From: a virus
Virus record (IMG/VR): IMGVR_UViG_3300008110_000524
Span: 1 to 20,666 of that record
Reading direction: 5' to 3' (one strand)
DNA length: 20,666 bases
In this document: positions 709 through 12,204 of the stretch, piece by piece
How the letters are laid out: every line of letters starts with the position of its first letter
Position numbering within the stretch: position 1 is the first letter of the stretch
The notes under the pieces: model-generated
The model's input: the letters and a program-made list of their open reading frames with translations, nothing else
Told to the model about the DNA's origin: nothing
Database searches by the model: none
Made by a program: the position numbers and the translations under genes

Positions 709-871
709 ACGACCACAGCATTTGCTGCGTATCCAGTTTGAGAAGGGCTACTATGCCTTCAGCCGTGGCTGGCTCACCAACAGCTACGATCCATCTAGCT
801 TGGCTGGCATGGAATGGGAGCGTGGCTTTAATGCTGCATACTTTGACAACCTTGCACGGATTAGTAAATGA
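695..871 (+). CDS. Small RMF/CrpP-like protein, tentative (58 aa)
   Basis: The 58-residue product starts at the ATG at 695, because GGAG at 684-687 is seven bases in front of it; the in-frame ATG at 683 has nothing comparable. It contains the pattern F-x-K-G-Y-Y-A-F-S-R-G-W (about residues 15-26), then SYD, then EWERGFNAAYF (about 40-50). This G-Y-x-A-x-x-x-G ... W-x-x-G-x-x-x-A-x-x arrangement resembles ribosome modulation factor and the CrpP-like small phage proteins. RMF dimerises ribosomes in stationary phase; CrpP-like proteins have debated roles. Resemblance is by eye only and the segment is short, so the call is tentative. Its stop codon overlaps the next start as ATGA (868-871), so the two are probably translated together. 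Confidence 0.7.
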   Translation: MQQFKRPQHLLRIQFEKGYYAFSRGWLTNSYDPSSLAGMEWERGFNAAYFDNLARISK

Positions 872-1248
872 CATTCAATCGTCTACATAATATGCGCAAC
901 CCTCACCAAGGCAGCAACAAGAAAGTGTTGTGTGTCTGTTCTGCTGGGTTGTTGCGTAGTCCTACGTTAGCTTGGATCTTGTCTAACGAGCCGTTCAACT
1001 TCAACACCAGAGCAGTTGGTACGTCCAGCGAATATGCTTTGATTGTGTTGGATGAGGTGCAGCTTCAATGGGCGGATGCTGTTGTCTTTGTTGACGATGG
1101 CAACTACCAAGCAGCCTGCTACGACCACAAGGAATTGATTGATAATATGGAACATCACGTGTTGAAGATTCCTGACATCTATGAGTATCGTCATCCGAAG
1201 CTTGTAGAGGCTGCGACAGCACAGTTGAAAGAAGCTTTCAAGTTGTGA
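868..1248 (+). CDS. Predicted protein tyrosine phosphatase, COG4551-like (126 aa)
   Basis: A cysteine phosphatase signature C-x5-R is present as C24-S-A-G-L-L-R30-S, directly after a short beta strand (KKVLCV), exactly as in low-molecular-weight phosphatases. A later IPDIYEYRHPKL segment (residues 101-112) carries the probable general acid D103 in the P-D-x-Y-x-Y-x-x-P-x-L form seen in the COG4551 'predicted protein tyrosine phosphatase' family. The length (126 aa, about 110 without the N-terminal extension) suits that family. A soluble cytoplasmic enzyme is expected; its substrate is unknown. The start at 868 overlaps the previous stop as ATGA; a second ATG at 892 would remove only the non-conserved leader. 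It is the last protein gene before the RNA genes. An inactive relative is possible, but both key residues are intact. Confidence 0.85.
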   Translation: MTFNRLHNMRNPHQGSNKKVLCVCSAGLLRSPTLAWILSNEPFNFNTRAVGTSSEYALIVLDEVQLQWADAVVFVDDGNYQAACYDHKELIDNMEHHVLKIPDIYEYRHPKLVEAATAQLKEAFKL

Positions 1249-1338: not shown

Positions 1339-1414
1339 ATATCGGTAGCTCAACTGGCAGAGCAACGGATTCCAAATCCGTAGGTTGTGTGTTCGACTCA
1401 CACCCGGTATCCCA
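1339..1414 (+). tRNA. tRNA-Trp (anticodon CCA)
   Basis: A full cloverleaf can be drawn. The acceptor is ATATCGG 1339-1345 with CCGGTAT 1404-1410 (one T-G wobble). The D arm is GCTC/GAGC (1348-1351, 1360-1363). The anticodon arm is ACGGA/TCCGT (1365-1369, 1377-1381) around loop TTCCAAA with CCA at 1372-1374. The T arm is GTGTG/CACAC (1387-1391, 1399-1403) with loop TTCGACT. The discriminator base is C1411 and CCA is encoded at 1412-1414. Anticodon CCA reads UGG (Trp). Position 73 is normally G in bacterial tRNA-Trp and is a main identity element for TrpRS, so C73 is unusual. The gene lies seven bases after the tRNA-like element and directly before the terminator. Confidence 0.95.
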
Positions 1415-1462: not shown

Positions 1463-4400
1463 TCACCGACGACTTGCTAGTCCACCCTTCGCCAGCTTTT
1501 CTGCTGCATTGAATACAGCATTAAGCTCTTTAATACGACCAGCTTCCTCATAAGCGTCACCGCCAAAGTTTGACCCGTAGTTAGACAATGCTTTGGTAAA
1601 ATCTCTAAGCGTCTGTGCTTTTTGTTTTGCACCAGCAGCATCAAGAATGTTAGCGACTTTATTTATTTCCTTAGCCTTGTCAGATAACGAGTTTAATTTT
1701 GTAGCAGCTTGATGACCACGACCACCCTTCACTGAAACATTTGATGCCATATTGTTGATGACGCTCATCAGATCACGAACACCACCATATGTTGTGTATG
1801 CATCAGCAACACTCTTGTTATTAACCGCATTCTTCAATGTAGCCTCAAACCGTTTGGCTGTCTCGTTATACATCTCAGGCGATGCGTCCCTCTTAGATGG
1901 GGCAGTCAACGCTTCCATATCACTAGCAGCACTGCGTAGTCTAAGCTTGTCAGCCTCAACCATCATGTTTTCTTTTTCAAAATAACCAGCACGTGGTAAA
2001 GCTATTGGACGAACAACTGTTGATGACCCATTGATTGATCTTGCAACAGTGTTCAGGTCTTTATTTTCATAAGCACCCGGTGACATGTTAATTCTTGTGA
2101 ACACATAATCTGCATATGGCATTTTTGTATACAAGATATTATTGGGATTTGTACCACCAAAACCTTCGTTAACTGCGTTCAGGTTTAGATCGCTAGTAAA
2201 AGAAGGAGCACCTACCATAAACTCTTCATGGTAACTAGATGTTTTTTGAGGACTCATGAATCCTTTTGCTTTTACTGGTGCGATCTTGGCTGGTTTATTC
2301 CCATGCCATAGTTTCTTATCGGGAATATCTTTGTATTGTTCACGAAGAGTATCAAGTTTATTCTGATAGCTAGTTGCCATTTTCATACCAACATCTTTAT
2401 CAGACGCTACACTAAATTCACGATTGAACTTAGCCCTGAATTCTCCTTGCAATACACCCAAAACTTCATCGTCAAACATATCAAACGATTCATCTTTCCG
2501 AATGTTACTGAACTCTTTAGTCCTGTACTGTCTAATTGAATCCAACAAATCATTGCGTTGTTTGACGTAGTTCTTTTGCTCTGACATGGTAGCATCGTCC
2601 ATGTCCAATTCTGGAATTTTAAAATTAAGATCACCAGAGTCGAAACCGTTTGTCTTCTTACCAAGAGGTTCTGTCACAACATCGGCTTCAAATGAGGCCA
2701 ACTCATCATCCAACATTGAGTCAGCACCCTTGCTTGGTTTAACAGCAATACCGTTCACAGACACTTCGTTGCCATCAATGTCATACTCAATATTGTCTAC
2801 CAAAGAATCATCAGCCTTCTTAGCAAAAGGCGGTGGTGGTGTCTCAGAAAACTTCAACCCTTTAGCTTGAGCAGTGAAACTATGCAGAGTATTTTCATAC
2901 TCTTCAGGACTGGATACTTTCATACTCTTCAACTGAGCAGGCGTATACGATTCCAACATAGCCTCTTCACCCATGATGTAGTCTTCATCAGAAAAGGCTT
3001 TAGAGGGCGCAGGAGCCTCTATCGTCTGTGCTGGTGGGGTAGATAGGGCTTGCTCTGTTTGGCTCAACGCAGGCGCTTCTGGTGGCTTTGCTGCCGCTTC
3101 AGGAAGCGTAGGCGTAGGCTTTGCTGCAGGTTTAGGCAGCACAGGCTTCTTACCCATCAACATGTTGGCGGTTTGATCCATTGCTGCAGACGGTGCAGGG
3201 CTGGACAATTGTTTGTTGATGATGGTGTCGATGGCTGCATCGTCTGTTGGTGTAACAGTGGCAGCTTTCTTCTTGAGTGTTTCCAAGATTGGTTCAGCAG
3301 CTTCACCGACAGCTTTCTTACCCAACACTTTACCAACAACACCACCTTTGGCGAATGCAAGATTACCCAGCATTGCCTCATACTTATCGACAGCTTTGTA
3401 GTCTTTGGCTTCTTCCAGAGTTACACCATTATTATCACGAGCATAACGTTCGTTGATAACCTTGCGCTGATCTTGTGACAGCTTGTCGAAACGCATCTTC
3501 TTCACACGCAACAAATCCTCAGACATAAACTTACCGTCTGTTTTGTCACGAGCAATACTTGTCACATCACGAACAACGTTTGTCAGCGCCAGCTTCTGCT
3601 CAGTGGGAGACAGTGCTTGGTAGCGCTTGTTTGCTATGGTGCGCTCAATGGCGCTAATGACCATTGGGTTAGCAGCTTCAACAAAGGCACGATCATACAA
3701 ACGGTCACCAGACGATGGACCATACAGTTTGAATGGATCGATACCGAGTCGAACAATCTCTTTCTCAGCAACAGTTTTTGGTGGTGCTTCACGTACACCA
3801 ACCAAGCTGTAGAAGAATTCACCTTCCTTGTACACTGGGCCTTCGCGCAAACGTGGAACAGCTTCTGGAAGTTCTTCTTTGAGAACAGGCAACTTACCCT
3901 GCACACGATTGGTAGCAGCTTCCAAGAAACGATCACCACTTCCTTCAGCAGTGATGACGTTAGGGTCACGCTGAACAGCACCTTCTTCGCGGAACAAGTC
4001 GAAGAATTCGTAAGCGCTCTTGAACACAAATGGTTGTGAGAAACGAGCAACGAAGTCACCCAACACTTTACCCAAAGCAATCTCAAGCTTGTCTGCTTCT
4101 TTCTCAGACGACATAGCGGCAAACACTTGATCAAGGAATTGGTTCTGTGTACCTGCTGGCATCTTCATACCAACGATGGACTCAACCATCTCAGCAGTCT
4201 TTGGCTCCAACCCCATCTTACGCTTAGCCATGAAGTCGGCAACAGCCAATGTTGGACCAAGAGGGAACACAGCACGAGTGTCAACAGTGGAACCATCATC
4301 TTGTTTAATGTTGAACCATTCAGTGTCTTGGTTGTTCAGACGGTAGTCATACGCTGCAGCCAATGCTGCTGTACCAACAACACCCTTAGCAATGTTCTCT

Positions 4401-6688
4401 TGGCCTTTACGGATGAGAGCTTCACCACCGGAAGAGCCTGCAGCTTTCAACAAAGAACCCTGCAACAAGTCTTCCATACCTGACGCTGCACCAAAGACGC
4501 TATAGCGATACTGGAAAGCAATGGCGTTAGACATGAAGCGCGGGAATGTAGCGATCAAACTACCACCGGGAAATTCAGCAGCCTTAACAAACAAGTTACC
4601 TGCAGCTTCTGCACCAGCTTCAAAGGTTTGAATGCCTTGCTTCTGAACCTTTGGTGTGTACGAGAATGTAGCCTTCAGAGTTTCGTCTGTAGCTTGTTGC
4701 AAGATGGATGCTGGGATGGTCTTGCCTTGACCAATCACTTCATACATGTCCAAACCAGCACGGCGCATGTGCTTCTCAACAGAAGCGTTGAAGATGGCTT
4801 TACGGAAGAAAGCGTCTTGTGCCACGTTCAAGGTGTTGAAGACCTGTGCAGCCTTAGACAACTCAGTGGTGGAGCTTTCCTGTGTAGCACTCAAGATGTT
4901 GTTGCGCAACGCAGGGTTGTGTTGCAACAAAGTGTCTGTCACTTCAGTGGACAACCCACCCTTTGCCATGTAGCCATAGACGCTGAATGCATCACTCATT
5001 GTGTCACCAAGACTACGCATAGCTGTGGTGAGTCGTTGACCCTTAGCAGCACCATCCAGTGTACGACCAACAGTGTACAAAGCACCTTCGACCAGCGAAG
5101 CAGCAGAGTTGTATGTCAGACCAACAGTGGTGCCCAAGACGTTACGAACTGTGGTGCCGATACCGGACACAATGAACGCCTTAGATTCACGCTCAGCAAA
5201 ACGAATAGCTTGACCAACACGACCAAGTGCTGACACTTGACTGTCTGGTTTAGCAAACAACTCATCGACCTGCTGCTTAATGACAGGGTCAATCTCTGTC
5301 ATGCGCTTGAGCACCTTTGATGCTGCAGAGTATTGCTGCATTACCTGAGCAGCCTCTGACACAGTCATCTTGTTTGCTTTGGCGAAGTCGTCTGGTGTCA
5401 GTCCTTCTTTACGAATGGCTTGTTCCAGCACAGCATCGTTGACGTTGTCCAAGTTGGAGAACACTTCGTTGATGGCAGAGCTAGTTTGCTGACCCGGTTT
5501 AAGTCGGAATGTAGGATCTTGTTCAATGACGTGCATCGCCACACGAACAGCACGAGCAGACATGTCCTTCTGAACCTTCGCATCTGTCAAAGCTGTAGCA
5601 GGATTGACCTCGTCCAAGATACGTCTACCTTCAATCTTAATGAAGTCTTCAACAACCTTGTCCATGTTCTCAGTGACAGGATCAATCAAGATGCGCTCAG
5701 TAGATGTGATAGGTGCGTTGGGGTCTTTAGGTACTGCTTGTTTCTTCTTCAAGATGTCAGTGAGTTGGTCAGCACCAGTCTTACCAGCAGGGACAGCCAT
5801 AGTACCCTTAGCTTCAAAGAAGCCACCAACAGCACCAATCAAAGCAGCAAGACCAATCTGTGTAGCGTCCAAGTCTTTAGGTGTCTGACCAAGCTCTGTA
5901 GATACAGCTTGTTGTTTCTTTTGTTCGACAACGTTCTGACCAGCACCGATGATTGCCTCAGTACCCATAGTGGCAGCAGTGACAGCAGCAGGTGTAGCCT
6001 TCAACAACGAAGCTGTTGCAGCCTTTGTTGCTTCCTTAGCAATCATCTTCTTACCAGCAGTGGCAACACCGAAACCAATGTAGTTGGTCAAGTCAGTCAA
6101 TGCAGACTTAGCAATGTCTACATACGGTGTCATGCCGGGTTGACCGCCTTCTTCTGTTGCGCTCTTAACCTGATCAAACAAACGTGTACCAGCAGCAAGC
6201 TTCTCCCTGTCAGACATTGGAGAGTTCTTCAGCTTATTCAGAGCAGCGATGTTAGAGAAGGTGTTCCATTCTTGACCACGCAAATTGGACATGAAGCCTG
6301 CAACAAACTGTTCTTTGTTCTGGCCTTCTTTGTACTCTGTACCTGTTGCCACTTTGTTGTAGTCTTGAACAATCTTGAACAACTCAGGATTGGTGTAGAG
6401 TTCTTTGTAGTCAAACTTAGGTGGTTCAGGTTTAGCACGTTCTTCAACGGCAGCAGCCTGCACTTTCTTTAGCTCTGTAGCACGTTGACGTGGAGCAGCA
6501 AAGGCAGGCTTAGTCAGATCGACTTCAGGCTTTGCAGCCATGCGTTCGATTTGTTGTGGTGTTGGTCTAGCAGCAGTCAGTGAAGGTGCTGTGTCTGTAA
6601 AGACAATAGACGGTTTAGTCGGAGTGTCGGTGAACTTAATTGTTGACGAAGAAGATTGCTCTTCCTCATCTAAGAATTTAATAGCCAT
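1463..6688 (-). CDS. Very large internal virion (DNA-ejection) protein, gp16-like by position (1741 aa)
   Basis: This is the last and largest gene of the virion operon. By size and position at the end of the internal-protein series it corresponds to the T7 gp16 class, which enters the cell envelope at infection and helps draw in DNA. Residues 1-35 hold two (I/V)xFTD motifs. Hydrophobic Ala/Gly-rich stretches occur at about 202-250 and 278-292. A Pro/Ala-rich linker lies near 1170-1230. Around 1460-1463 is LWHG, followed by GAPSFTSD, a layout reminiscent of PARP-like ADP-ribosyltransferases but not proven. I saw no lytic transglycosylase motif, unlike T7 gp16. AKGG motifs occur at about 1113 and near the C-terminus. 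The last 400 residues or so are encoded by clearly AT-richer DNA. The start is preceded by GAGG and sits two bases after the previous stop. Confidence 0.85.
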   Translation of the reverse strand: MAIKFLDEEEQSSSSTIKFTDTPTKPSIVFTDTAPSLTAARPTPQQIERMAAKPEVDLTKPAFAAPRQRATELKKVQAAAVEERAKPEPPKFDYKELYTNPELFKIVQDYNKVATGTEYKEGQNKEQFVAGFMSNLRGQEWNTFSNIAALNKLKNSPMSDREKLAAGTRLFDQVKSATEEGGQPGMTPYVDIAKSALTDLTNYIGFGVATAGKKMIAKEATKAATASLLKATPAAVTAATMGTEAIIGAGQNVVEQKKQQAVSTELGQTPKDLDATQIGLAALIGAVGGFFEAKGTMAVPAGKTGADQLTDILKKKQAVPKDPNAPITSTERILIDPVTENMDKVVEDFIKIEGRRILDEVNPATALTDAKVQKDMSARAVRVAMHVIEQDPTFRLKPGQQTSSAINEVFSNLDNVNDAVLEQAIRKEGLTPDDFAKANKMTVSEAAQVMQQYSAASKVLKRMTEIDPVIKQQVDELFAKPDSQVSALGRVGQAIRFAERESKAFIVSGIGTTVRNVLGTTVGLTYNSAASLVEGALYTVGRTLDGAAKGQRLTTAMRSLGDTMSDAFSVYGYMAKGGLSTEVTDTLLQHNPALRNNILSATQESSTTELSKAAQVFNTLNVAQDAFFRKAIFNASVEKHMRRAGLDMYEVIGQGKTIPASILQQATDETLKATFSYTPKVQKQGIQTFEAGAEAAGNLFVKAAEFPGGSLIATFPRFMSNAIAFQYRYSVFGAASGMEDLLQGSLLKAAGSSGGEALIRKGQENIAKGVVGTAALAAAYDYRLNNQDTEWFNIKQDDGSTVDTRAVFPLGPTLAVADFMAKRKMGLEPKTAEMVESIVGMKMPAGTQNQFLDQVFAAMSSEKEADKLEIALGKVLGDFVARFSQPFVFKSAYEFFDLFREEGAVQRDPNVITAEGSGDRFLEAATNRVQGKLPVLKEELPEAVPRLREGPVYKEGEFFYSLVGVREAPPKTVAEKEIVRLGIDPFKLYGPSSGDRLYDRAFVEAANPMVISAIERTIANKRYQALSPTEQKLALTNVVRDVTSIARDKTDGKFMSEDLLRVKKMRFDKLSQDQRKVINERYARDNNGVTLEEAKDYKAVDKYEAMLGNLAFAKGGVVGKVLGKKAVGEAAEPILETLKKKAATVTPTDDAAIDTIINKQLSSPAPSAAMDQTANMLMGKKPVLPKPAAKPTPTLPEAAAKPPEAPALSQTEQALSTPPAQTIEAPAPSKAFSDEDYIMGEEAMLESYTPAQLKSMKVSSPEEYENTLHSFTAQAKGLKFSETPPPPFAKKADDSLVDNIEYDIDGNEVSVNGIAVKPSKGADSMLDDELASFEADVVTEPLGKKTNGFDSGDLNFKIPELDMDDATMSEQKNYVKQRNDLLDSIRQYRTKEFSNIRKDESFDMFDDEVLGVLQGEFRAKFNREFSVASDKDVGMKMATSYQNKLDTLREQYKDIPDKKLWHGNKPAKIAPVKAKGFMSPQKTSSYHEEFMVGAPSFTSDLNLNAVNEGFGGTNPNNILYTKMPYADYVFTRINMSPGAYENKDLNTVARSINGSSTVVRPIALPRAGYFEKENMMVEADKLRLRSAASDMEALTAPSKRDASPEMYNETAKRFEATLKNAVNNKSVADAYTTYGGVRDLMSVINNMASNVSVKGGRGHQAATKLNSLSDKAKEINKVANILDAAGAKQKAQTLRDFTKALSNYGSNFGGDAYEEAGRIKELNAVFNAAEKLAKGGLASRR

Positions 6689-6690
6689 TG

Positions 6691-8058
6691 TTATTGAACC
6701 TCTGCTGGTCGTCCATTGATTGTAATCTTAGTGCCTTTGGGAAGTTTAGCCGCTTCAGCTTCTGCCACACTCTTGAAGTTTTTAACTGGTGTGGCAGCAG
6801 GTGTCTGTGTCGTAGGTGTAGCAGCACCGCTGTCACGCATGACAGAAGGAACGACAGAGGTGAATGAGTTCAGCACCGATGCAACATCACGGTTGAATGG
6901 TTTACCTTCAGCGTCTGTGTAGAGCGACAAAGCGTTCTTGGCTGCATTAGCTTGTGTCTCCAAGATCTGACGGCGAAGAGTGTCGTTGTCACCGATGTAA
7001 TCAATACCAACACTACCATCAGCCTTCTCAACAATAGCAAGCTGCTTAGACTTAATCAAGTCACCATGCTTAGCTGCAACAGCACGAGCAACAGAAGCGG
7101 ATGTGAATGTATTCAGTGTACCAAGTGCAGGAATCTTACCTTCACCCTCACCGTCTTTAGTAACCTTCTTAGCCAATGCTTCAGCACGAATGTCAGCCAT
7201 GAGCTTATCGTATTCAGGCTTAGCTGCTTTACGTGTTTCAGCATCACCGAACATGTAACGATTCTTGATGTCAGCAACTTTGTTAGAGAATTGTGATTGT
7301 TCTGTTGTAAGTGTGTCTTTGATCGTCTTGAAAATATACAAGTCAGCTTTAGCCAAGGCAACATCTTCAGGAGTACCTTTACGTGTAGCATCAAGTAATT
7401 TAGCTTTAGCTTCTTGTTCTTGTTTATCGAAGCTCTTTGGTGGCTGCATTGAAGTAAAGTCAAACTCAGCACCTGTTTCAAACTCTGGACGCTTATAACC
7501 ACTGGCAGCACGAAGCTGATCAATAGAAACACCCATAGCTTTAGCAGTTTGCTCTTCAGCTTTAGAGCCTGCACGGGTAGCAGCACGGCTACGCAGTGTA
7601 CCAATACCAAACAAACTATCTGGTTTAGCTGCAGTTGTTTCTCCTTCAGCTTGACGGGCTGCTTGTGAAACTGCAGGCACCTCTGTATACTTCTTCAACC
7701 GTTCCATAGCTGTCAAAGATGAGGCATTGTCTTCTTTAATCTTTACAACATCTCCAACTTTGAAAGTACCGGGATTAGCCTTAGCAGCTTCAACAGCCAT
7801 AGACATGTACGCTTTGTTTGTAGCAGCAGCAAACAATTCAGCTTCAGTAGCTGTCTTGTCAAATGTACGCAGTGTCTTGATATTCTCAGACACTTCATTT
7901 TCCAGCTTACGGTTATCGGCCTGCACCTTATCGTAGTTTTCTTTCAACGCTTTGATGCCGAACGTAGCAGAAGCCGCAGCTTGTTTTTCGTCTTCCTTTA
8001 GAGTTGCTGTAATATTTTCTGCAGCGCCTGCAATGAATGAACTAAATCTAAATCCCAT
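6691..8058 (-). CDS. Probable internal virion protein (455 aa)
   Basis: A 455-residue, Lys/Glu/Ala-rich, mostly helical protein with no signal peptide. Residues 20-70 look like coiled coil (LKEDEKQAAAS ... KLENEVSENIKTL). The C-terminus is a separate small module: after a Pro/Thr-rich linker (about 408-425) comes FKSVAEAEAAKLPKGTKI followed by TINGRPAEV, a short fold that I recall as a C-terminal add-on in many phage proteins. I do not recognise an enzyme. Its place between the 164-aa gene and the 1741-aa gene suggests an inner-core or ejection protein like T7 gp15. The ATG overlaps the previous stop as TAATG at 8058, indicating coupled translation, and its own stop is two bases before the next start. 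The structural role is inferred from context only. Confidence 0.75.
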   Translation of the reverse strand: MGFRFSSFIAGAAENITATLKEDEKQAAASATFGIKALKENYDKVQADNRKLENEVSENIKTLRTFDKTATEAELFAAATNKAYMSMAVEAAKANPGTFKVGDVVKIKEDNASSLTAMERLKKYTEVPAVSQAARQAEGETTAAKPDSLFGIGTLRSRAATRAGSKAEEQTAKAMGVSIDQLRAASGYKRPEFETGAEFDFTSMQPPKSFDKQEQEAKAKLLDATRKGTPEDVALAKADLYIFKTIKDTLTTEQSQFSNKVADIKNRYMFGDAETRKAAKPEYDKLMADIRAEALAKKVTKDGEGEGKIPALGTLNTFTSASVARAVAAKHGDLIKSKQLAIVEKADGSVGIDYIGDNDTLRRQILETQANAAKNALSLYTDAEGKPFNRDVASVLNSFTSVVPSVMRDSGAATPTTQTPAATPVKNFKSVAEAEAAKLPKGTKITINGRPAEVQ

Positions 8059-8552
8059 TACATATTCTCCATCTTGTTAGGCTTACGGGCCATCAAACCA
8101 GAAAGCTCCACCACCGATTCTTCTTCAACATCTGTTGTGGGAGCAGAGGCTTTCTTCAAAGCATTCTTGATGACGCGATCAGGAATAACATCCTCATCAG
8201 GATCTTTTTCAAACACTTGATATTCAACACCATGTATCTCAGCCAACGTTACAAGCATCTCAATAATGACAGGGATCACCAAGATACCAGCATCAATAGT
8301 GTGTACATTACTAGCTACACCAGCCAGCATCAAAGCATTGGCAACAGCGGCAAGAGGCAAACCAGTTTCAATCAAATCAATAGCTCGATTGATAACTGTA
8401 GGTTGAGACAATGTGTCAATGTAAACATTGGCAACATCACTCACTTTAACATACTTAGGTGGAGTGTTCCAAGGTGTACTGCGTGGTGCATCCGTAAATG
8501 AAATACCGGGTGGTACAGATTTGATAAAATCAATTGTGCTCAAATTAGCCAT
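8058..8552 (-). CDS. Conserved phage protein in the internal-virion cluster (164 aa)
   Basis: The product begins MANLSTIDFIKSVPPGISF and contains a TPPKYVKVSDV segment (about residues 30-40), a central amphipathic to hydrophobic helical part (about 60-108; LPLAAVANALMLAGVASN, then ILVIPVIIEMLVTLAEI) and an acidic, Lys-rich C-terminus. I recall a family of this form in podoviruses of aquatic bacteria without a known function. The central region is hydrophobic but interrupted by charged residues, so a true membrane segment is uncertain. An ISFTD motif at residues 17-21 echoes the (I/V)xFTD motifs of the 1741-aa protein. AGAGGAAATGA supplies a good ribosome site. The gene overlaps the previous one by eight bases and the next by one (TAATG). 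Confidence 0.7.
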   Translation of the reverse strand: MANLSTIDFIKSVPPGISFTDAPRSTPWNTPPKYVKVSDVANVYIDTLSQPTVINRAIDLIETGLPLAAVANALMLAGVASNVHTIDAGILVIPVIIEMLVTLAEIHGVEYQVFEKDPDEDVIPDRVIKNALKKASAPTTDVEEESVVELSGLMARKPNKMENM

Positions 8553-8751
8553 TCTTCATTTCCTCTCGTGACTTACGAATATTTTGAACAAAGCTGGCAA
8601 TAACATCTATGTCAGTCTTCGGTTGTTCCTTAGACGGTAAGGTCTTGGATGGTGACAACAAGCCTTTAGCGTCTTTGGTTTTTGCCGATGTACTGTTACG
8701 TGAAGCAACAATACTTTCAATCTTTTTCATGTAATTTTTAATATGCTGCAT
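8545..8751 (-). CDS. Small basic protein, unknown function (68 aa)
   Basis: A 68-residue, Lys/Ser-rich protein. A helix (residues 1-20, HIKNYMKKIESIVASR) is followed by a Ser/Pro/Lys-rich flexible middle (about 20-45) and a C-terminal helix (about 48-65, VIASFVQNIRKSREEMK). There is no membrane segment and no recognised domain. AAGGA stands about eight bases before the ATG. The gene starts 11 bases after the 835-aa gene ends and overlaps the 164-aa gene by eight bases. The composition resembles a small scaffold or connector between larger virion proteins, but this is only a guess from position. Confidence 0.6.
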   Translation of the reverse strand: MQHIKNYMKKIESIVASRNSTSAKTKDAKGLLSPSKTLPSKEQPKTDIDVIASFVQNIRKSREEMKNG

Positions 8752-8762
8752 GTTATTGTTCC

Positions 8763-11270
8763 TTAGTCAAAGATGCTTTTAATATCAGCAATAGTAATGT
8801 TCTTAACCACTTCACCGAAGAAGCTTCCGAGAGCACTACTACTTTCAGCATCAGCTTTAATGTTTGCTACATCTTTCTGAATAGAAGCAATAGCCAAGTT
8901 AGTGATTCGATCTTTACCACTTTCACCAGTCTTCCAAGAATACGACAACAGGTCACGATAGGTCTGACTTTGTTGTGCGTAAACTGAGGCAGACAATTCT
9001 GTAGCGTTCTTTGCGTTAACAGCGTTAGCGGCATTGACAGCAGCAGTGTTAGCTGTAGAAACATCAGCCAAGATTTTAGCATTAACGACATTGATTTCTG
9101 CAGCCATACGAGTGTTAAACTCTTGACGGTCATTAGCTTCTTGAGCGTTAAACTTTATCAACGCATTAGCTGCATCCATGTTCGCAAGATTTACTTTGTT
9201 GCGTTCACTGGCATTGAACTGACTAGCCGTAAGAGCCAATGTTTCTGAAATCTTAGCTGCCTCCAAAGTATTGTTAGCGTTAGTGATACGTACAGCATTG
9301 GAAAGGGCAGCGTCACTCAGTAAAGCATCAGCAACTTCCTGTGCCTTGAACAGAGAAGTTTGTTGACGCAACTCCAAGTTCTTAACATCCATCATCAAAA
9401 AAGATTTGGCATTATCGACAGCGGCTTGTTGACGATTATTCAAGTTGGTTGTCTCAAGCTGCGACATCTGTGCAGCCTTAGCTAACACCACAGCGTTACG
9501 TGCTGACAAATTCGCAACATCCATTGTGTTAGTCAGTCGCGCATTCTCAATTGCAATAGTAGTCTGTGCATCAAAGTTCTTATCAGCAATGTCGGCTACA
9601 CGAGCAGCGTTCAATACACGAGTCTGAAACGCCTGATCAAATTCTTGACCAAGAAACTGAGCACGTTGCTGTCCAGTCAACACAGCAATCTGTTGACGGT
9701 TGGACAAGTTCTGCAATCCCATCTGCTCAAACACTTTAGCATCAGCAGCAGCAATAGGTGTAGCAGCTTCCAGTGTTGCTTGAACGATGGCTTGACCAGC
9801 AAGGCTAGATGCCCCTAGTCCACGGGCAGCAAGCTGAGCAGTGGCATTTCGCATTGAAGCAGCAGCCCAAGGTGGTGGGGCACCAGCGTCAAAGTTGCTG
9901 AGTAATTTATTCAACTGACCTTGCACAGTCATTTCTTCTGTAACAGCGCCCTGTGCAGCCTGTGTAGCCGCCAATGTCTTTTCAACCCTGCCCATGTCAA
10001 CAGTTGGACCAGCCACCATTTCACCAGCCTGTGCAACACGTGTTGGCGCACCAGCCACTTGAGCAGCAGCACCCTGTGCAGCTTGTACACCAGCCAGTGC
10101 GGTTGTTTCAGGTGCCTGTGTAGCTGCAGTGATCTGTGCTTGTTGAGAAACAGCGCCTTGTTCGGGTTGTAGCTTAGCAAGCTCTGCCGATACAGCAGGA
10201 ACAGCGGTAGCTGCTGTAGCAGTAGGGGCAGTGACAACACCCGGTGCGGCAACACCAGTGGCTTCAGCGGCCTGTGCAGGAACAGCAGATGTAACATCAC
10301 CTATAGTTGGCGTAGTAGCCAACATACCGGGAGTAATTTGAGTTTGCTGTGCTGTGTACGATCCGGCTCGGGGAACGTTCGGAGCACCGACAGTGGTGTC
10401 TGGTGTACTACCACCAACCAATCCTTTTGCTTTATTAATTGCCGTTTCTAAATCTTGTTCACGCCACTGTGGTAATGCTTCATTAATTTCAGTAGCTGTA
10501 TAACCAGATGTAGCTAACCATTTATCTAAATCAGCCTGAGTGCCTTTCCCATTGTTGGCGTTATACCAGTCCTTAATTTCTTGTATTCTTTTTGGATCAG
10601 ATTTAGGTTTTGTTGTTGCAGGAAGAGGAGTAATATTAACACCAATACCACCAGTACCCACACCGGGAGTGTTAGCAATATTAGATGATGTTATGTCTGT
10701 ATTTTGAATACCTTTGAATGTATTATCCACTCCAGCAGTAGCAGCACGTTTAGTACCACCAGTACCCATTGTTTCCGCAATTAGGAATTCATCTGGCCCA
10801 AGTTCCGTGCGTATAGCATCTCGTGATGCTTGACGTGTGGTGCGATCCATATCCACCTGTTTTAACCGATTAACGGCTTGTTCAACAGTTTCACCTGACA
10901 ATCGTGGGATACTGGAAGGATTCGCAAAGTACGAAGACAAATTTGGATCAGACGGTGTATATGCCTTAAGTTTTGCTGCGGCTGCTTCGTCTTCTTTGGT
11001 TTTTACGTCTATGTATCGCTGGCGCTCCGCTTCACTCATGGGACCACCACCACCTACAACAAACTCACTGGTCGCACTACCACCAGCAGCAAACTTCTTT
11101 ACAACGCCACCCTTTGCCATACGCTTTGCGAACTTATCAGACAACGTAGCATACTTCATTTCCAGAGATGGAGATGAACTGATGAAGTCGTCAAAGCCCT
11201 GCATAGGACCGTCATAACCGAGCTTACGAGCTACGATTTCTTTTTGTTTTGCTGTAAAATTGTCAGCCAT
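8763..11270 (-). CDS. Internal virion protein with long helical repeat (835 aa)
   Basis: Domains in order. Residues 1-50 are a helical start. AKGGVVKKFAAGG at 52-64 is a Gly/Lys motif. Residues 80-160 are charged and helical. About 221-283 is a small helical domain (WYNANNGKG, then QADLDKWLATSGY) encoded by AT-rich DNA. About 290-450 is an Ala/Gln/Thr/Pro-rich flexible stretch. About 470-520 is the conserved-looking RNATAQLAARGLGASSLAG segment. Residues 521-762 are eleven gap-free 22-residue units, and 763-835 a short C-terminal region. There is no enzyme motif. The long straight helix, size and place in the series suggest a T7 gp14/gp15-type internal protein that could form or line a trans-envelope conduit at ejection; that role is inferred. 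AAAGGTAAG precedes the ATG. The gene follows the endolysin by 11 bases. Confidence 0.8.
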   Translation of the reverse strand: MADNFTAKQKEIVARKLGYDGPMQGFDDFISSSPSLEMKYATLSDKFAKRMAKGGVVKKFAAGGSATSEFVVGGGGPMSEAERQRYIDVKTKEDEAAAAKLKAYTPSDPNLSSYFANPSSIPRLSGETVEQAVNRLKQVDMDRTTRQASRDAIRTELGPDEFLIAETMGTGGTKRAATAGVDNTFKGIQNTDITSSNIANTPGVGTGGIGVNITPLPATTKPKSDPKRIQEIKDWYNANNGKGTQADLDKWLATSGYTATEINEALPQWREQDLETAINKAKGLVGGSTPDTTVGAPNVPRAGSYTAQQTQITPGMLATTPTIGDVTSAVPAQAAEATGVAAPGVVTAPTATAATAVPAVSAELAKLQPEQGAVSQQAQITAATQAPETTALAGVQAAQGAAAQVAGAPTRVAQAGEMVAGPTVDMGRVEKTLAATQAAQGAVTEEMTVQGQLNKLLSNFDAGAPPPWAAASMRNATAQLAARGLGASSLAGQAIVQATLEAATPIAAADAKVFEQMGLQNLSNRQQIAVLTGQQRAQFLGQEFDQAFQTRVLNAARVADIADKNFDAQTTIAIENARLTNTMDVANLSARNAVVLAKAAQMSQLETTNLNNRQQAAVDNAKSFLMMDVKNLELRQQTSLFKAQEVADALLSDAALSNAVRITNANNTLEAAKISETLALTASQFNASERNKVNLANMDAANALIKFNAQEANDRQEFNTRMAAEINVVNAKILADVSTANTAAVNAANAVNAKNATELSASVYAQQSQTYRDLLSYSWKTGESGKDRITNLAIASIQKDVANIKADAESSSALGSFFGEVVKNITIADIKSIFD
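8985..9710 (-). repeat. Eleven tandem 22-residue (66-nt) coding repeats
   Basis: Residues 521-762 of the 835-aa protein fall into eleven consecutive 22-residue units with no insertion or deletion. Column 1 is Asn in eight of eleven units (Asp, Glu or Ser otherwise). Columns 12-13 are Asn-Ala in eight units, and column 13 is Ala in ten. Column 2 is usually Leu or Phe in the first six units. Units 1, 5 and 6 share the RQQ at columns 5-7. Because Asn recurs at 1 and 12, the basic period is probably 11 residues, a hendecad. DNA identity between units is low, so this is an old, protein-level repeat. Confidence 0.85.
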
Positions 11271-11281
11271 ATCTTACCTTT

Positions 11282-11752
11282 TTAAGCTACCAAACCTTGG
11301 AGATACACAGTTCTACCATTTTGTCGAACCGCTGTCATCACTTGTCGTTTAAGATTGTTACTGTCGTATGAAACATGAACCCAACCACTATCAGGAATAC
11401 CTTGTGTATAGAACTCTAAAATCAATTGTGTGAATTCAAAGTTGTCTGCTATATATTGTGCAAGCTCTGCATTGGCTACACCGGGTATTTCAATGTCAGC
11501 AGCTTGTCCTTTGCAGTGATCGCTAGTACGACTACCACCAACGGCAGCATTAACATCAGGACTACGATAGCCACTATTGACTTTAATACCAACACCATAA
11601 GCATCACGCAATGGTTGCAACACTTGTTCACACAGAGTAGTCAGATTATGCACAACTTCATCGCTATGTGGTGTGTTGTCCATATCCCTGCGTGAAGCTG
11701 TCTCACTCTTAATCATCTCATGCAAAGAGAAGTTGTTAGTCAGCATTGTCAT
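11282..11752 (-). CDS. Peptidase M15 family endolysin (156 aa)
   Basis: This is a zinc peptidase of the M15 type (D-alanyl-D-alanine carboxypeptidase or L-Ala-D-Glu endopeptidase-like), which cuts peptidoglycan peptides. The signature S-x-H-x2-G-x-A-x-D is present (S77, H79, G82, A84, D86), preceded by the GYRSP turn (61-65) and followed by GWVHVSY with the third zinc ligand H126. All metal ligands are therefore in place. The length is normal for the small M15A phage enzymes. There is no signal peptide, so it needs a holin to reach the wall. The ATG overlaps the Rz stop as ATGA and has AAGGAG in front. A second ATG at codon 3 is possible. A virion role cannot be excluded, but its position beside the spanins makes lysis the better reading. 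Confidence 0.9.
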   Translation of the reverse strand: MTMLTNNFSLHEMIKSETASRRDMDNTPHSDEVVHNLTTLCEQVLQPLRDAYGVGIKVNSGYRSPDVNAAVGGSRTSDHCKGQAADIEIPGVANAELAQYIADNFEFTQLILEFYTQGIPDSGWVHVSYDSNNLKRQVMTAVRQNGRTVYLQGLVA

Positions 11753-12204
11753 TTTTTCTCCTTAGTTGTAGGCCAAGCATCTCTCAAGGCTTTCGCATCA
11801 ACTGCGTGTCCGTCAGCGAGTCTTGCCATTTCTTCAAGAGCAACTGTACACTCTCCGAATACGGACGTTGAGGTTGTGGCGTAGTCTCTAACGGCGGGGC
11901 AGGTAGCTGTAGTGATGGCGGTGGTGGCACGGTTTGCTTCGACGCGCACCCGGTGAAGCTCAATACGAGCAGCATCGGCAGCAAGAGAGTTTTTACGAAT
12001 TTGTTGTTGAGCAGCTTTGAGAGCATCATCTTTCTGTCCTTGTAAACGAGCAGCTTCTTTAGCCACCTCTGTTGTTGCAGCCGCTACAGCGGCAGCGTTA
12101 GTTGCTTCCATCTCAGCAATGGTTGCATTCATTCTCCAACCCTGAACAGCAAAGCCACCAAAGAAGGTGGCAATGGCTATGACAATTGTGATAATAATAT
12201 TCAC
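11749..12204 (-). CDS. Rz: Inner-membrane spanin Rz (151 aa)
   Basis: This is an i-spanin: an N-terminal membrane anchor (residues 2-22, IIITIVIAIATFFGGFAVQGW) followed by a long Ala/Glu/Arg-rich periplasmic coiled coil (about 28-100) and a C-terminal part containing two Cys. With Rz1 it would bridge the periplasm and fuse the membranes in the last step of lysis. The start is GTG at 12204, overlapping the previous stop as GTGA; AGGAG lies eight bases upstream and supports it, and there is no competing ATG with a ribosome site. Rz1 lies wholly inside it in the +1 frame, the arrangement known from many phages. The stop overlaps the endolysin start as ATGA. Confidence 0.88.
   Translation of the reverse strand: MNIIITIVIAIATFFGGFAVQGWRMNATIAEMEATNAAAVAAATTEVAKEAARLQGQKDDALKAAQQQIRKNSLAADAARIELHRVRVEANRATTAITTATCPAVRDYATTSTSVFGECTVALEEMARLADGHAVDAKALRDAWPTTKEKK
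11784..12029 (-). CDS. Rz1: Outer-membrane spanin lipoprotein Rz1, nested in Rz (81 aa)
   Basis: The 81-residue product begins with Lys residues, a hydrophobic signal (residues 14-26) and a lipobox F-T-G-C28, so Cys28 would be the lipidated N-terminus of the mature protein. Gly at -1 is standard, while Phe at -3 is less usual than Leu. The mature part is short and Pro-rich (PPPPSLQLPAPPLETTPQP), typical of Rz1, and ends in a short helix. AAGGA stands seven bases before the first ATG at 12029; a second ATG follows directly. The gene sits entirely within Rz in another frame and ends 35 bases before the Rz stop. Partner: the periplasmic part of Rz. Confidence 0.88.
   Translation of the reverse strand: MMLSKLLNNKFVKTLLLPMLLVLSFTGCASKQTVPPPPSLQLPAPPLETTPQPQRPYSESVQLLLKKWQDSLTDTQLMRKP

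Follow-up and report, generated by a model that had tools for sequence, protein, structure and literature searches.

Whole-unit length variation in the predicted helical repeat of a probable virion protein from HMO-2011-type podophages

The stretch of DNA analysed here (the window) is a virus record of 20,666 bases, probably a fragment, whose genes correspond in content and order to those in the structural half of Puniceispirillum phage HMO-2011. It encodes, in order, an adaptor, a 518-aa structural protein, a fibre, and small and lysis genes, followed by genes for proteins of 835, 68, 164, 455 and 1741 aa (Table 1). The 835-aa gene is the first of a conserved module, which is closed by the 1741-aa protein, the largest of the window, whose gene lies where podophages encode their large ejection protein. 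The order of genes in this module is common to HMO-2011, the CRP phages, phiM6, Slicky01, CHOED and MQM1; the downstream succession of ~65, ~170, ~450 and >1000-aa genes is also found in the window, and in some relatives the ~65-aa gene is replaced or absent.

Elsewhere in the window, an M15 endolysin (11282-11752) adjoins a spanin-like pair on the minus strand, in which an Rz1-like lipoprotein ORF (11784-12029; LSFTGC, with a weak Pfam LysC/Rz1 match) is nested, in another frame, inside an Rz-like ORF (11749-12204). A tRNA-Trp with a CCA anticodon (1339-1414, plus strand) lies just past the end of the structural module. A 126-aa protein (868-1248, plus strand) displays a CSAGLLRS (CX5R) phosphatase-type motif and a weak Pfam match to DSPc (E 0.017).

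Table 1. Genes of the module and features of the 835-aa protein, with window positions
Feature	Position	Strand	Basis
835-aa repeat protein, HMO-2011 gp25 family	8763..11270	-	ORF; homologues in viral contigs and phage records
68-aa gene, downstream, same module	8545..8751	-	60-74 aa gene at the equivalent place in relatives
164-aa gene, downstream, same module	8058..8552	-	164-192 aa gene at the equivalent place in 15 phages
455-aa gene, downstream, same module	6691..8058	-	306-928 aa gene at the equivalent place in relatives
1741-aa gene, downstream	1463..6688	-	synteny with HMO-2011 phage1322_22; two AKGG motifs
N-terminal conserved module, residues 1-30 (FTAKQKEIVARKLGYDGPMQGF...)	11181..11270	-	conservation across relatives
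AKGG motif, residues 50-65	11076..11123	-	motif scan of 16 window proteins
Ala/Pro/Gly/Thr-rich variable linker, residues 66-420	10011..11075	-	length differences not multiples of 11
N-anchor domain, residues 443-512 (RGLGASSLAGQAIVQA...)	9735..9944	-	profile from 78 sequences
Segment A, residues 521-652, six predicted 22-residue helix-turn units	9315..9710	-	22-residue period; N-cap at column 3; AlphaFold2 model of relative L042
Segment B, residues 653-762, ten 11-residue units	8985..9314	-	11-residue period; continuous helix predicted by AlphaFold2
C-anchor, residues 766-825 (YRDLLSYSWKTGESGKDR...)	8796..8975	-	profile matches in 71 sequences

Homologues of the 835-aa protein were found in 59 viral contigs and 22 phage records, and include those from Roseobacter, Pelagibacter, Rhizobium, Sinorhizobium, Pseudoalteromonas, Vibrio and Aeromonas phages. 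Homology to gp25 of HMO-2011 (phage1322_25; 46 % identity over residues 414-834, E 6e-62) covers the N-anchor, the repeat and the C-anchor, which places the protein in the HMO-2011 gp25 family. Members of this family, from Puniceispirillum, Roseobacter CRP, Pelagibacter, Rhizobium and Vibrio CHOED phages, share gene order and register with the window protein, but differ from it in unit number and, in some CRP phages, in the addition of an S74 or LysM domain. They are annotated only as hypothetical protein; Pfam and PHROG searches of the window protein returned nothing significant, S74 included, and extra scans of the long relatives with the same collections returned nothing.

With regard to gene surroundings in the relatives, a gene annotated as toxin-activating lysine-acyltransferase directly follows the repeat gene in HTVC115P (L065:5009-5458), and genes annotated as acyl- or acetyltransferases are located near the repeat-family gene of CRP-738 and Y3. 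In Pseudoalteromonas phage Y3, a protein sharing the N-anchor (L090:8177-8303) is encoded a few genes before a gene of ~10 kb, which is annotated as a DdrB-like ParB superfamily domain.

The 835-aa protein itself has a modular layout. Its N-terminal module (FTAxQKEVVARKxGYxGPM...AKGG) opens a small upstream ORF of its own, apart from the repeat protein, in several relatives (L006, 4663-5238; L008, L016, L019 and L029), suggesting that it is separable or mobile. The 835-aa protein has one AKGG motif and the 1741-aa protein has two (RMAKGGVVKK, AFAKGGVVGK and KLAKGGLASR), whilst the motif is absent from the 14 other window proteins scanned; it is possibly a shared signal for a common virion compartment. 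A variable linker then leads to the N-anchor, which is followed by the repeat, divided here into segments A and B, and by the C-anchor. Those homologues that have no C-anchor are cut at or near contig ends.

The original prediction divided residues 521-762 (8985-9710, minus strand) into eleven gap-free 22-mers, eight of which begin with Asn (column 1) and eight of which have Asn-Ala at columns 12-13; this register is borne out without indels, and both counts hold (8 of 11 units). The period is significant when the autocorrelation of the repeat is compared with that of 500 shuffles (z of 6-7 for lags 22 and 44, against some 3 for lag 11). By BLOSUM score, z reaches 7.0 at lag 22, 6.4 at lag 44, 4.7 at lag 55 and 3.7 at lag 11, the corresponding values by identity being 6.0, 6.2, 4.2 and 2.8. 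At the DNA level, Tandem Repeats Finder detected no tandem repeats in this part of the window, indicating that the units are old and diverged; the repeat of relative L042 likewise has none.

The proposal that the true period is probably 11 residues applies to one half of the repeat and not to the other. In segment B of most relatives, lag 11 is equal to or stronger than lag 22 (7.8 versus 5.3 in Slicky01), whilst in the window's own segment B it is lag 22 that is stronger (4.3 versus 2.8). In segment A, by contrast, the 22-residue period dominates, and homologues carry a much cleaner repeat (NLSNxQQTALANAQ...) than the window protein, L042 reaching a z of 13.7 at lag 22 versus 3.9 at lag 11. 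The consensus of 155 segment A units reads N L [S/N/D/T] N x Q Q [A/T/V] A [L/V/I/M] x N A Q ..., in which helix N-cap residues (Ser/Thr/Asp/Asn) occupy column 3 in 91 % of the units, but the half-way column 14 in only 16 %. From this spacing, a helix seems to start once per 22 residues.

Variation in the length of the repeat proceeds strictly by whole steps. Profiles of the N-anchor and C-anchor were used to measure the distance between the two anchors in each homologue, the window protein included, and in all 71 measurable sequences this equals the reference plus a multiple of 11. Most fall in class 0 (45 sequences), with the remainder at +110 (6), +220 (5), +330 (3), +88 (3), -66 (4), -77 (2), -11 (2) and -44 (1). 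Three held-out phages that took no part in profile building also fit (CHOED at -55, MQM1 at -44 and CRP-212 at -66), so that whole-step change between relatives, the check put forward with the original prediction, extends to 74 of 74 measurable homologues, with n from -7 to +30 and no exception. No register-breaking indels were seen, and the seven homologues that could not be measured, being cut at or near contig ends, all keep the register up to their final unit. The linker before the N-anchor served as a control: of its 35 distinct lengths, 2 are divisible by 11, about the chance expectation. If the nine distinct non-zero classes are treated as independent, the chance probability is (1/11)^9, or about 4e-10, a figure that is indicative since the classes are not fully independent. 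The unit arithmetic of the repeat is stronger than the original prediction could have known.

Block alignment places almost all of the length changes in segment A, where they comprise even numbers of hendecads, i.e. whole 22-mers. Changes by a single hendecad lie mostly in segment B (phiM6 and RHph_N3_13). CRP-9 and CRP-207, in which the first unit is affected, are exceptions, as are some of the changes in the divergent HTVC033P. Within one lineage, segment A consists of 6, 11, 16 or 21 units, and in L042 blocks of five units have been duplicated, with an identity of 0.45 at the five-unit lag versus about 0.3. In units 6-15 of the L042 segment A these duplicated blocks are 110 residues long, and the structural model has a shorter helix at every fifth unit; together, the five-unit duplications and the shorter fifth helix suggest a superhelical period of five helices in this lineage.

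Such variation might reflect neutral drift, with unit number limited only by the register of the fold and free of functional meaning, in either of the locations considered below. Consistent with this, 45 of the 71 measured sequences have one length, the others follow lineages (e.g. the 110-aa block duplications in one clade), and no quantity was found that tracks repeat length. Across 12 phages, the length of the repeat displays no significant correlation with those of the 164-, 455- and 1741-aa-type neighbours (Spearman -0.54, -0.49 and 0.05; p 0.07, 0.11 and 0.87, respectively). Set against drift is the retention of one length at only about 45-78 % identity, which is unlike the expectation from drift alone. 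On balance, this explanation is possible, if somewhat doubtful.

With regard to location, the 835-aa protein is a large, probably virion-borne protein of abundant ocean phages, and an ejection role is plausible on the indirect evidence of its gene position and of domains found in remote relatives. A C-terminal S74 chaperone domain is present on CRP-3, CRP-738 and CRP-235, the last of which also has an N-terminal LysM, and CRP-212 resembles CRP-3 over the S74-bearing C-terminal part of the latter. The S74-bearing CRP relatives match phrog_4287 and phrog_6121, which are named 'DNA ejection protein' and 'virion structural protein', respectively. At comparable places in phages 7-11, Privateer and H6/1, S74 proteins are annotated as ejection proteins; that of Privateer was found in virions by mass spectrometry, according to its database record. 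Like the family described here, 7-11 gp20 and Privateer gp18 head an ejection-type gene set, and they have S74 in common with CRP-3, CRP-738 and CRP-235; the window protein, unlike them, is devoid of a C-terminal S74. Outside S74 there is no detectable likeness to these two proteins, in which no comparable 22-residue array was noticed. SU10 gp22 is a relative of 7-11 gp20, and the N-anchor matched neither of them outside S74, the only match to the 7-11 family being S74 itself.

The ejection sets of T7 (gp14-gp15-gp16) and SU10 (gp20-24) are alike to the present module in their position at the end of the structural genes and in their very large last protein, but have no sequence similarity detected to this family. 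In hhalign comparisons built on shallow profiles, the repeat protein against T7 gp14, and its neighbours against gp13-16, gave probabilities under 1 %, and no sequence homology was found between the neighbours and T7 gp13-16, SU10 gp20-24 or 7-11 gp21-24. A search of the available literature returned no proteomics of HMO-2011-type virions. For SU10, gp20-24 are present in virions and lost on genome release (PMC9509320).

The S74 domain is also typical of external fibres. The 835-aa protein might accordingly be an external trimeric tail fibre, spike or needle that contacts the cell wall, in which the repeat forms the shaft and a C-terminal chaperone brings about trimerisation. The S74 domains of CRP-3, CRP-738, CRP-235 and, by C-terminal similarity, CRP-212 would fit such a role, as would the LysM of CRP-235 and the location of fibre and tail genes upstream of the 835-aa gene. 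However, the window protein and most of the relatives tested have no S74, S74 proteins annotated for ejection exist, the window already encodes a fibre protein with a weak S74 match, and the gene is grouped with large proteins rather than among the fibres. Weighing these points, an external fibre appears rather unlikely.

The original prediction saw in the repeat a single straight hendecad coiled-coil rod of 242 residues and about 36 nm, which could be ejected so as to bridge the envelope and whose length would be set by unit number. Whole-step length changes among relatives agree with this, as does the true 11-residue period of segment B, and AlphaFold2 gives for window residues 421-835 a single helix (546-781) without turns, albeit at low confidence (mean pLDDT 55, with values of about 70-81 confined to residues ~660-750 and values below 50 across much of segment A). 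A hendecad coiled coil with one seam is expected to peak near 98.2 degrees in hydropathy. In the window protein and its relatives, however, power at this angle is near zero, the peaks of the repeat being at 131 and 164 degrees, and the pairing of an 11-residue period with power near 98 degrees was not found. The 164-degree peak may be an alias of twice 98.2 degrees, a pattern expected where two opposite faces of a helix are buried. Further evidence against a rod comes from the N-cap, which recurs once per 22 residues, and from relative L042 (52 hendecads), for which AlphaFold2 predicts, at higher confidence (pLDDT mostly 80-90), ~16-residue helices and turns, one per 22-mer, with helices beginning one residue after the N-cap column. 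This is a monomer model (pTM 0.48), in which segment B is again one long helix of low confidence. A rod would also have to reach ~86 nm in the longest relatives (572 residues x 0.15 nm). Consequently, a single 36-nm rod is unlikely, and that length does not follow once segment A has separate helices; by our own estimate, the window repeat would consist of a solenoid of roughly 6 nm and a helix of ~16 nm.

On these models, segment A is most likely an alpha-solenoid, and segment B looks like a continuous helix. In the window's own segment A, the model of which is continuous, the solenoid is predicted from homology and motif. A Foldseek search of the structural model against the PDB gave no match at E ≤ 0.001, a second look with VIA-align reached at most Z 6.1, which is within the chance range for helical repeats, and a profile search of the PDB found no match. 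Among viral models, Foldseek matched three at E ≤ 0.001, with identities of 63, 25 and 25 %, and none of these has a known function. The L042 model is weakly similar in its stacking of short helices to the designed extendable helical-repeat fibres PDB 8g8i (Z 5.3, rmsd 8.6 over 281 residues) and 8eoz (Z 4.1, rmsd 5.0 over 123), which are unrelated in sequence and whose Z values are at chance level for helical repeats. A beta-solenoid or curli-like reading, prompted by the Asn pattern and the 164-degree peak, was rejected, as both AlphaFold2 models are all-helical and the composition is helix-forming (about 1 % Gly and practically no Pro).

An assembly factor, i.e. a scaffold or tape-measure-like protein setting a head or tail dimension, is very improbable: variation by 11-residue units is also seen in the tape measures of long-tailed phages (PMC3271669), but the relatives here are short-tailed, with tails shorter than any rod version, and repeat length has no significant correlation with that of other module proteins. 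In MQM1 the capsid measures 70.6 nm and the tail 9.2 nm (PMC10410586), and the CRP phages are short-tailed (PMC6918029); a tail tape measure was rejected on the strength of these short tails of relatives. The 11-residue tape measure proteins (Belcaid et al. 2011, PMC3271669) likewise have variable unit numbers, gap-free alignments and block duplications, such as those of 44 residues, comparable to the blocks described here. They differ in belonging to long tails and in their W/F markers, as opposed to the short tails of the present relatives and an Asn marker, and in that half of the repeat here has a 22-residue period with predicted helix-turn units.

The reading that we prefer is of an ejected podophage protein with a modular helical spacer, first solenoid and then long helix, and we regard its chances as about even. 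In this scheme the 835-aa protein, as the product of the first gene in the module, would be a structural and probably ejected protein of HMO-2011-type podophages, the middle of which forms a length-adjustable helical spacer between the conserved N-anchor and the conserved C-terminal part. Segment A would be an alpha-solenoid with one ~16-residue helix and one ~6-residue turn per 22-mer, and segment B a continuous helix with an 11-residue period. Units would be gained or lost only whole, since other changes would break helix packing. Of this scheme, the register, the changes by whole units, the two periodicities and the order of genes are observed, and the solenoid and the long helix are predicted. 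We infer the virion location and the ejection of the protein, as well as its service as a spacer, either across the cell envelope or inside the ejection apparatus. A more specific version, in which a natural, extendable solenoid with a single helix per repeat, adjusted by whole helices from ~3 to 21 in short-tailed phages, acts as an adjustable spacer of the ejection apparatus that matches host envelope geometry, is speculative and improbable. A 'ruler' function of the repeat is likewise hypothetical and unproven, as no measured quantity tracks its length.

The strict whole-unit variation seen across many phages amounts to a natural length series within one protein. By allowing both comparison and shortening, this series makes the question of a spacer or ruler testable for such a virion protein, and, if the solenoid is real, nature would have in this repeat a counterpart of the extendable helical-repeat fibres made by design.
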